Assembly (NCBI GenBank): GCA_039679645.1
Contig: JBDKUO010000015.1
Location: 1-56,162, forward strand
Direction of reading: 5' to 3'
DNA: 56,162 nucleotides
From: Armatimonadota bacterium
GTDB lineage: Bacteria > Armatimonadota > UBA5829
Made by a program: the position numbers and the translations under genes. This document shows positions 17,666 through 19,491 of the stretch, piece after piece; within the stretch, counting starts at the first letter, position 1, and every line of letters starts with the position of its first letter. Below the pieces are notes generated by a model. It saw only the letters and a program-made list of their open reading frames with translations. It was not told the DNA's origin and made no database searches.

Positions 17666-17831
17666 TTGTCTACCCCCTTGAAACTTGTGTTAAGTTGCAC
17701 TTCTGGAAATGATTTGGACCTTTGAACGGGGGTTTTGTTGTACCCAAGGGTTCATGCTTACCTTTGCCGATTCTTTTGTCCGGTTCGCAAGTCAAATCGA
17801 CCGTTGCCCGCGAACAGCAGAAGTCATGGTG

Positions 17832-17860
17832 ATTATACCTCAAGGAGTGCACTTTCAAAA
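17832..17860 (-). promoter_or_regulatory. Promoter of the zinc-ribbon gene
   Basis: On the minus strand TATAAT (17832-17837 on the plus strand as ATTATA) is preceded by TTTTGA with a 17-bp spacer or TTGAAA with 15 bp. It would give a 5' leader of about 160 bases before the zinc-ribbon start codon. Confidence 0.5.
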
Positions 17861-17958: not shown

Positions 17959-18393
17959 ATGAGGGCAACCGGCACGTCTCAGTATTTCAGGGACGCAATG
18001 ACTGAGCACATCACAAATGTTGAACAGGGGATCGTACTCTTCAAAGAAGGCAACTTTGAGCAGGCGGTCGGCATTCTGGAGGACGCCTCTCGGAAATATC
18101 CGGGAAGCTATGAGGCCTTCGTGTACCTGGGCGCGGCCTATGCTCAGCAGGGGCGGCACAATGCGGCGATAGGCGCATTGAAGCGTGCCGCCGAGATCAA
18201 GCCCGATTCCCCGCGCGTTCACTACAATCTCGGCCAGGCATATGAGGCGGCGGGAGTGCCGCGTGAAGCCTGGTTTGAATACAAAAAGGCTCTGGAACTG
18301 GACCCCAAATACGGCCTCGCGCGCGGCGCGCTGATCAGCTTATCACAGCGCCTTCCCAGACTGCTCGGCTCCGGCATTGAAGTGGCGGCATAA
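17959..18393 (+). CDS. TPR-repeat protein
   Basis: The 144-residue product consists mostly of three tetratricopeptide repeats. GIVLFKEGNFEQAVGILEDA opens the first, AFVYLGAAYAQQGRHNAAIG the second, and VHYNLGQAYEAAGVPREAWF the third, which ends at ALELDPKYGLARG. The C-terminal tail is short and lacks other domains. TPR arrays mediate protein-protein contacts; no partner can be inferred. I use the ATG at 17959 with GGGGA at 17946-17950; an internal ATG at 17998 is less well placed. It is followed by a sigma-54-like promoter and a gene-free structured region. Confidence 0.88.
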   Translation: MRATGTSQYFRDAMTEHITNVEQGIVLFKEGNFEQAVGILEDASRKYPGSYEAFVYLGAAYAQQGRHNAAIGALKRAAEIKPDSPRVHYNLGQAYEAAGVPREAWFEYKKALELDPKYGLARGALISLSQRLPRLLGSGIEVAA

Positions 18394-18451: not shown

Positions 18452-18467
18452 TGGCACGATTTCTGCA
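18452..18467 (+). promoter_or_regulatory. Sigma-54-type promoter
   Basis: TGGCACGATTTCTGCA matches the -24/-12 consensus TGGCACG-N4-TTGCA at every fixed position except one (C for T at 18463), with GG and GC exactly 12 bases apart. Transcription would begin near 18478 and run through a hairpin-rich stretch toward the flavodoxin-family gene at 18916. No activator gene or sigma-54 gene is in the window. Confidence 0.65.
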
Positions 18468-18477
18468 TGGATATTAA

Positions 18478-18730
18478 CTGCAAAGTGTTGTGCAGCCGGC
18501 CTATAGGAGTTAGGGGAGCATATTTCAGGTTTTATGCAAAACGCCCTGCTCCGGTGTTTTGCGATTCAAAGCCCGTTTATTGCGGGCTGCTCACTCCAAA
18601 GGGTGGTATATGCCACAACACGTAGAGGCGCTCCGGCACGTCTATCCTCAGGCTGTCGGAGCGTTTATAACGTACGTCTTGCCAGCGCGGCCCCGCTCTG
18701 GCATACGGGGCCGCGTCGGAAAGAAAGGAG
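18478..18730 (+). ncRNA. Candidate structured RNA (five successive hairpins)
   Basis: This stretch of a 522-base gap holds stem-loops in series. GCAAAACGCC/GGTGTTTTGC spans 18536-18562 with one wobble pair. AGCCCG/CGGGCT spans 18570-18588, and GTGG/CCAC spans 18603-18616. CGCTCCG/CGGAGCG pairs 18629-18635 with 18657-18663, and CGCGGCCCCG/CGGGGCCGCG pairs 18686-18695 with 18706-18715 perfectly. GCCAG at 18681-18685 can instead pair with CTGGC inside the last loop, giving a mutually exclusive fold. A purine-rich AAAGGAGAG follows. It may be a leader RNA or an independent small RNA. I recognise no known riboswitch, and the open frames here look random. Confidence 0.45.
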
Positions 18731-18869
18731 AGAAAGGGATTTTACTCTCGAAATTGTTGATACCCTCCACCCGCGAGTTCAAAACCTGACGGCTGAAAGA
18801 AAAATGTCCGAATTATTATTAATTTGCGTTCGGGCGTTCAAATGCTGGTTGGAGAGGAACATTTATATA

Positions 18870-18896
18870 GTTCATATAAGATTGAATATACTGAAC
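18870..18896. promoter_or_regulatory. Operator-like inverted repeat before the flavodoxin gene
   Basis: GTTCATATA (18870-18878) and TATACTGAAC (18887-18896) form an interrupted palindrome 20 bases before the ATG at 18916. Its position and AT-rich centre resemble a repressor site, but no regulator gene is adjacent. Confidence 0.35.
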
Positions 18897-18915
18897 AAAT
18901 ATATGGAGCATCAAG

Positions 18916-19491
18916 ATGAAAGCAATCGCAATATGCGGCAGTCCTCGAAAGGACGGCAACACCCAGATACTATTGGCACACTGCCTCGCTCGGCTCGAGA
19001 AGGACGGCATAGACGTTGAGCTGATAACACTCCGAGACAAGACAATCAAACCCTGCATAGCGTGCGGTATGTGCGGCCAGCGCAAAGACGGCACCTGTTC
19101 GATCAAGGATGACAATTTCCAGGAAGTCTTTGACGCGATGAAGGAGGCTGATATCATCGTAGTCGGTTCGCCTGTCTATTTCGGTTCGGCCACACCGCAG
19201 ACAATGGCTCTGCTTGATCGTGCCGGTTATGTGTCCAGATCGAGCGGCAATCTCCTTTCGCGAAAGATAGGAGGACCGGTCACAGTCGCGCGCCGCGCGG
19301 GTCAAAATTTCACATACGCTCAGCTTATGTACTGGTTTATGATAAACGACATGATCGTGCCGGGCTCTTCCTATTGGAACATCGCATTTGGCCGTGCCGC
19401 GGGCGAGGTCGAAAATGATGAAGAGGCATTAAGCACCATCGACAGGTTCGCCGAAAATCTGTCCTGGCTGGCGCGCAAGCTGTTTGACTAA
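18916..19491 (+). CDS. Flavodoxin-family / iron-sulfur flavoprotein-like NAD(P)H reductase
   Basis: The 191-residue product begins with the FMN phosphate loop AICGSPRKDGNTQILL. It continues with CIACGMCGQRKDGTC, a cysteine cluster as in iron-sulfur flavoproteins (Isf-like) that can hold 4Fe-4S. VGSPVYFGSATPQTMALLDR is the second flavin contact. Proteins of this group transfer electrons from ferredoxin or NAD(P)H to varied acceptors. The ATG at 18916 has GGAG at 18904-18907. It is preceded by a 522-base gap containing a sigma-54-like promoter and hairpins, and appears to be monocistronic. Confidence 0.9.
   Translation: MKAIAICGSPRKDGNTQILLAHCLARLEKDGIDVELITLRDKTIKPCIACGMCGQRKDGTCSIKDDNFQEVFDAMKEADIIVVGSPVYFGSATPQTMALLDRAGYVSRSSGNLLSRKIGGPVTVARRAGQNFTYAQLMYWFMINDMIVPGSSYWNIAFGRAAGEVENDEEALSTIDRFAENLSWLARKLFD

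Follow-up and report, generated by a model that had tools for sequence, protein, structure and literature searches.

The question raised by this locus is whether the promoter-like motif that opens a gene-free, hairpin-rich region serves the flavodoxin-fold gene that follows it or an RNA in its own right. The region lies in an Armatimonadota genome of 3.41 Mb in 69 contigs (G000), of which contig C15, 56,162 nucleotides long, is the stretch of DNA analysed here (the window). The initial annotation of the region had offered both readings, a regulated small RNA and a long leader sensing a redox- or flavin-related signal. The features of the locus, all on the + strand, are as follows.

17959–18393, +, gene for a small TPR protein of 144 amino acids (Pfam TPR matches; orthologues upstream of RNA1)
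18452–18467, +, sigma-54 (−24/−12) promoter TGGCACGATTTCTGCA (consensus match, conserved position)
18478–18669, +, RNA1, a structured RNA that very probably stands alone (covariance-model matches in eight genomes, compensatory changes in 15 pairs)
18685–18755, +, element 2, a G+C hairpin (18685–18695/18706–18716) and the tract CGGAAAGAAAGGAGAGAAAGGGAUUUUACUCUC (conservation, covariation)
18916–19491, +, gene for an NADPH-dependent FMN reductase (flavodoxin fold; PF03358, E = 8.5e-33)

The promoter belongs to a sigma-54/PEP-CTERM set

The motif TGGCACGATTTCTGCA matches the sigma-54 consensus TGGCACGNNNNTTGCW at 15 of 16 positions, with one mismatch, and is kept at the equivalent place in all eight genomes in which RNA1 is found, which bears out its earlier description as a near-perfect −24/−12 promoter. 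The pattern TGGCACGN5TGCA is exact at seven of these eight loci, with one mismatch in G005. In the seven loci linked to a TPR gene the promoter lies 43–73 bp past the TPR match (exact in six, with the single mismatch of G005 in the other). It is 100% identical to that of G004, the flanks on both sides being less conserved. Consensus sites with at most two mismatches occur in the window at the chance rate (10 found versus 10.45 expected), and the promoter is significant because of the genome-wide excess of such sites, their placement at PEP-CTERM genes and the conserved position, not from the window alone.

Genome-wide, TGGCACGN5TGCA is found at ten sites, compared with one for the reversed pattern. 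Eight of the ten exact sites are directly upstream of PEP-CTERM genes (contigs C14, C20, C25, C29, C33, C39, C45 and C50; loci L076 and L078–L084), and seven of the eight linked genes exceed the TIGR02595 cut-off, the C20 gene falling just below it (14.1 versus 16 bits). Given the 41 PEP-CTERM matches in the genome, and assuming 200 bp upstream of each gene, the binomial probability of eight such placements by chance is about 2e-22. The two exceptions are a site on contig C58 near a groES-type gene and the RNA1 promoter. The latter is a member of the sigma-54/PEP-CTERM promoter set of G000.

The initial annotation had pointed to rpoN and an enhancer-binding protein as the genes to look for, and both are present: G000 has rpoN in two copies and, besides weaker AAA matches, two canonical sigma-54 activators (strong Sigma54_activat matches), one on contig C16 and the other on C5. 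A stretch of contig C16 (L154; G000:C16, 4893–16057) carries a histidine kinase, an NtrC-type regulator, chemotaxis-type genes, the second rpoN and then two PEP-CTERM genes. The C16 activator adjoins the histidine kinase; the second rpoN and the two PEP-CTERM genes are some 7 kb away, beyond the chemotaxis-type genes.

In Proteobacteria, PEP-CTERM genes have sigma-54 motifs upstream and occur along with PrsK, PrsR and PrsT, and the passages of the report that deal with these motifs give them as common only to Proteobacteria among the species discussed (Haft et al., 2006; PMC1569441). G000 resembles the PrsR-controlled regulon of those passages in having a −24/−12 motif before many PEP-CTERM genes and an NtrC-type regulator with a sensor kinase; it differs in the small RNA proposed here, since none is described in them. 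Against the NCBIfam models, the C16 kinase scores 97.5 bits for PrsK (TIGR02916, cut-off 300) and the C16 regulator 429 bits for PrsR (TIGR02915, cut-off 502.6). The sites in front of PEP-CTERM genes suggest, from sequence, a sigma-54/PEP-CTERM regulon outside the Proteobacteria. The sigma-54 motif is also far above its reversed control in Armatimonadota relatives, for example 29 versus 2 in G020.

RNA1 is a conserved and covarying structure

Transcription from the predicted promoter would start near 18478 and end near 18666–18669, giving an RNA of about 190 nt. The 438-nt RNA folds 4.85 standard deviations below its dinucleotide shuffles, and the five successive stems noted earlier are recovered between 18536 and 18749, with pair probabilities of at least 0.9. 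The parts of RNA1 itself are listed below.

18485–18492/18614–18621, +, P1, closing helix GUGUUGUG/CACAACAC (pair probability 0.94, RNA1 alone)
18506–18510 and 18516–18519/18589–18597, +, P2, helix closing the P3/P4 junction (pair probability 0.84–0.99)
18536–18545/18553–18562, +, P3, 10-bp hairpin with apical loop CUGCUCC (compensatory changes in 9/10 pairs, 96% of cells paired)
18570–18588, +, P4, hairpin AGCCCGU...GCGGGCU (pair probability 0.96; kept in 8/8 genomes)
18589–18601, +, near-invariant segment GCUCACUCCAAAG between P4 and P5 (conservation in eight genomes)
18626–18666, +, terminator-type hairpin AGGCGCUCCGGCA...UGUCGGAGCGUUU (compensatory changes in 5/8 modelled pairs)

The conserved structure to be expected in relatives of a functional RNA is there, the stems being kept and covarying in eight genomes. 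In the eight-sequence alignment, standard pairs occupy 89% of the cells and compensatory changes on both sides occur in 15 of 26 pairs (7.7 in shuffles, 0/500; 3–7 in slid controls), although this alignment (A3) was fitted to the structure of the model and the pair counts therefore lean somewhat towards it. P3 is the strongest helix, and its loop is almost unchanged, (C/A)UGCUC(C/A), across the eight genomes. The segment that follows P4, GCUYACKCCAAAG, shows only two substitutions among them, one each in G011 and G007. The case for P1 and P2 is mainly one of energy, because these helices are too invariant or shift too much in register for covariation: P1-type pairing reappears when most of the eight sequences are folded without constraint, and P2 is kept in G011 as GAGUAAGC/GCUUACUC, its register varying among species. 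Both helices have high pair probabilities in the window RNA cut at 18669. In a fold that runs on to 18790, pairing with 18756–18789 competes with P1 and P2, and the full 438-nt fold restores both.

A small protein encoded by RNA1 was considered and rejected: there is no shared reading frame, the hairpin loops carry indels, and no conserved reading frame runs across RNA1 in the genomes compared. RNA1 has its own promoter, a conserved structure, a terminator-type hairpin and no coding frame, as a small RNA should, with a weak U-tract in the window: the U-rich DNA after the terminator-type hairpin is weak at this locus (GUUUAUAAC) and strong (TTTTTT) in G013.

RNA1 follows the sigma-54 sites within one family

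A first covariance model, built from seven sequences, recovered G007 as the eighth. RNA1 scores 92–130 bits in eight genomes, with one copy in each (G000, G001, G002, G004, G005, G007, G011 and G013). A second model run on 40 genomes with lax filters gave nothing above 22 bits outside these eight, and a search of about 400 genomes under strict filters recovered these eight and two marginal matches besides. On this evidence RNA1 is confined to a single Armatimonadota family, because covariance-model matches of 92–130 bits occur only there. A search with the intergenic DNA likewise recovered the region in members of the genus and the family, and homologous loci in the named collection come from the Armatimonadetes MAGs SKW42 and LacPavin_0920_SED3_MAG_51_14 and the bacterium MAGs bin.50 and bin.10. 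Covariance-model matches outside the family (L094, L095 and L143–L146) are weak and were treated as chance, L094 and L095 on inspection resembling coding sequence or adjoining a recA-like gene. Similarly, one of five pattern matches in the genome collection (L097, Chitinophagales) is a chance match at the edge of a coding sequence. Viral contigs gave no match. In Rfam 15 there was none at gathering scores or at E ≤ 5, in line with the earlier remark that no known riboswitch is recognisable. RNA1 is a previously undescribed RNA with no Rfam family.

The TPR gene is upstream of RNA1 in seven of the eight genomes (G000, G001, G002, G004, G005, G007 and G011); G013 has the promoter and RNA1 without it. 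In the near-complete genomes of the family, RNA1 goes with a clear excess of sigma-54 sites over the reversed control (G000 10/1, G001 11/0, G002 17/0, G004 14/0, G005 11/0, G007 7/1 and G011 9/1) and is missing where that excess is slight or nil (G006 5/2, G008 1/1, G009 0/1 and G010 4/3), in a comparison that left out G013, where RNA1 is present. The exception is G003, with sites at 8/0 and yet no RNA1. This 80%-complete assembly has the TPR gene, the FMN reductase gene and element 2, and a repeat containing a run of N takes the place of RNA1 at the locus. Neither PEP-CTERM genes nor RNA1 are found in G008, G012 and G014.

The 'regulated small RNA' of the initial annotation is supported by the presence of rpoN and enhancer-binding proteins, the conserved promoter, the covarying stems and the conserved terminator-type hairpin; its other proposals, a sensing leader and a switching RNA, fare poorly (see below). 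In all likelihood, the locus carries a stand-alone sigma-54 RNA.

It should also be noted that, upstream of the zf_Tbcl zinc-ribbon gene, a minus-strand region (17666–17850) looks conserved in G006, G007 and G010. It contains a TATAAT box and GAACCCUUGGGU...CCCCCGUUC...GGUCC, and is possibly a second conserved RNA leader.

How RNA1 may act

RNA1 would be transcribed by RpoN–RNA polymerase activated by an NtrC-type enhancer-binding protein, and would therefore be made when the set of PEP-CTERM surface-protein genes is switched on. The transcript is predicted to fold into a P1-closed multibranch structure (P2, P3 and P4) and to end at the G+C hairpin. Most likely, it would then act in trans, base-pairing through its UGCUCC apical loop and the CUCACUCCAAAG segment. 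The CUCC core of both could pair with GGAG-type ribosome-binding sites. We propose antisense action in trans because the stems covary while the C-rich loops are unchanged, as for a pairing seed.

We may wonder whether the PEP-CTERM mRNAs are themselves the targets. Set against 54 other translation starts of this genome, those of the PEP-CTERM genes are no better partners for either C-rich segment (p = 0.46 and 0.14), which leaves pairing with PEP-CTERM mRNAs unsupported. This makes protein binding a serious rival: RNA1 might be a protein-binding RNA, for instance one that sequesters a regulator, and its multibranch, P1-closed fold with near-invariant loops would suit such a role, since protein binding would conserve the same loops. 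A short, C-rich conserved loop is, however, equally expected of a pairing seed; we consider protein binding unlikely, if the best of the alternatives. The reading that we prefer, a stand-alone sigma-54-dependent small RNA co-regulated with the PEP-CTERM genes and acting in trans by base pairing, is in our estimation evenly balanced when taken as a whole.

Small RNAs that depend on sigma-54 and act in trans include the enterobacterial GlmY/GlmZ, the Vibrio Qrr RNAs and Pseudomonas CrcZ. RNA1 resembles them as a stand-alone structured RNA with a sigma-54 promoter and a terminator-type hairpin; it differs in having no Rfam match and in its fold, phylum and regulon. In Gram-positive bacteria, antisense small RNAs with C-rich loops, such as RNAIII and FsrA, pair with ribosome-binding sites. 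RNA1 shares with these its conserved CUCC-containing loops, although the pairing test at PEP-CTERM starts was negative.

Element 2 is a separate conserved unit

The stem at 18686–18715, in which the initial annotation saw an alternative partner and a possible RNA switch, is part of element 2, a conserved unit separate from RNA1. The switch is not supported: the 18685–18716 stem pairs at P = 0.99 in every folded context, and riboswitch-like switching is rejected by these pair probabilities. The hairpin of element 2 is followed by the AAAGGAGAG tract (CGGAAAGAAAGGAGAGAAAGGGAU), which contains an extended Shine–Dalgarno-like AGAAAGGAG. Element 2 is 99% identical to that of G004 over 70 bases, compared with 86% and 82% for the neighbouring genes, and its hairpin shows compensatory changes in 5 of 10 pairs among nine genomes. 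In the genus of the window and in G005, GAGAG has a possible pairing partner in a CUCUC farther downstream (P 0.93–0.97 at the window locus).

RNA1 and element 2 are adjacent in six genomes (G000, G002, G004, G005, G011 and G013). Together with the weak terminator U-tract of the window, this could mean that both belong to one longer sigma-54 transcript, in which RNA1 would act as a leader and govern read-through into element 2 and an open reading frame, short or lost, behind it; an ATG is indeed at usable spacing after the tract in G006, G010, G011 and G013. But the two units are separable, lying on different contigs in G001, with element 2 only in G006 and G010 and RNA1 only in G007, where element 2 was not seen, and in G013 a TTTTTT terminator stands between them. 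Moreover, the usable start position is ATT in the genus of the window and in G005, and no frame is kept in that genus because the start codon is ATT and the length of the U-run varies. A single transcript is, in our view, improbable.

Element 2 itself may be a decoy, a separate RNA or the ribosome-binding site for a gene that is very short or has been lost. A plain ribosome-binding site whose gene has been lost fits less well, since the hairpin covaries and the sequence is 99% kept, with no frame preserved. A divergent copy of the tract (CTCGGAAAGAAAGGAGAGAAAGCG) was observed directly before the ATG of a gene for a secreted-type protein in G010 (L015, G010:C77, 1500–1530).

RNA1 is not conserved with the FMN reductase gene

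At the window locus, the FMN reductase gene is on the same strand, 246 bp downstream of RNA1, and at a similar distance in G004, an arrangement that favours RNA1 as its long regulatory leader or riboswitch. Yet the gene is 3′ of RNA1 only in the window genome and in this closest relative, and RNA1 is kept without it at the locus in the other six (G001, G002, G005, G007, G011 and G013). Downstream of RNA1 in G001, G002, G005, G007 and G011, the nearest large gene runs on the opposite strand (purB-like, phosphomannomutase-like, nucleosidase-like or ATPase-like); its counterpart in position in G013 lies on the same strand and is unrelated. In addition, a terminator-type hairpin intervenes between RNA1 and the FMN reductase gene, Rfam gives no riboswitch match, and the stem proposed to switch is stable. 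A leader of the FMN reductase gene, and with it the sensing of a redox- or flavin-related signal, appears largely refuted by synteny and is very improbable.

A chance promoter match with unrelated stems in ordinary intergenic DNA, as the chance rate of consensus sites in the window alone might suggest, can practically be dismissed, being contradicted by the promoter conserved in eight genomes, by covariation far above shuffled and slid controls and by a core identity to G004 (91%) above the 86% and 82% of the genes on either side.

Implications for the Armatimonadota

Our literature searches turned up nothing that combines PEP-CTERM with a small RNA or an RNA motif, and nothing of relevance on Armatimonadetes in connection with either PEP-CTERM or noncoding RNA. 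Small RNAs of the Armatimonadota thus appear undescribed in the literature searched, and RNA1 brings with it a promoter class, a regulon and a structure that can be tested. That sigma-54 sites are linked to PEP-CTERM genes beyond the Proteobacteria is noteworthy in itself. Taken jointly, the results tentatively point, at rather less than even confidence, to a new small-RNA family in an Armatimonadota sigma-54/PEP-CTERM regulon, adjoined by an element 2 that carries a sequestered ribosome-binding site and may itself be a decoy. If this is true, RNA1 would be a post-transcriptional arm of this regulon, which, so far reported for Proteobacteria, would extend to another phylum. If its targets are surface or exopolysaccharide functions, exosortase/PEP-CTERM systems would also be under RNA control.
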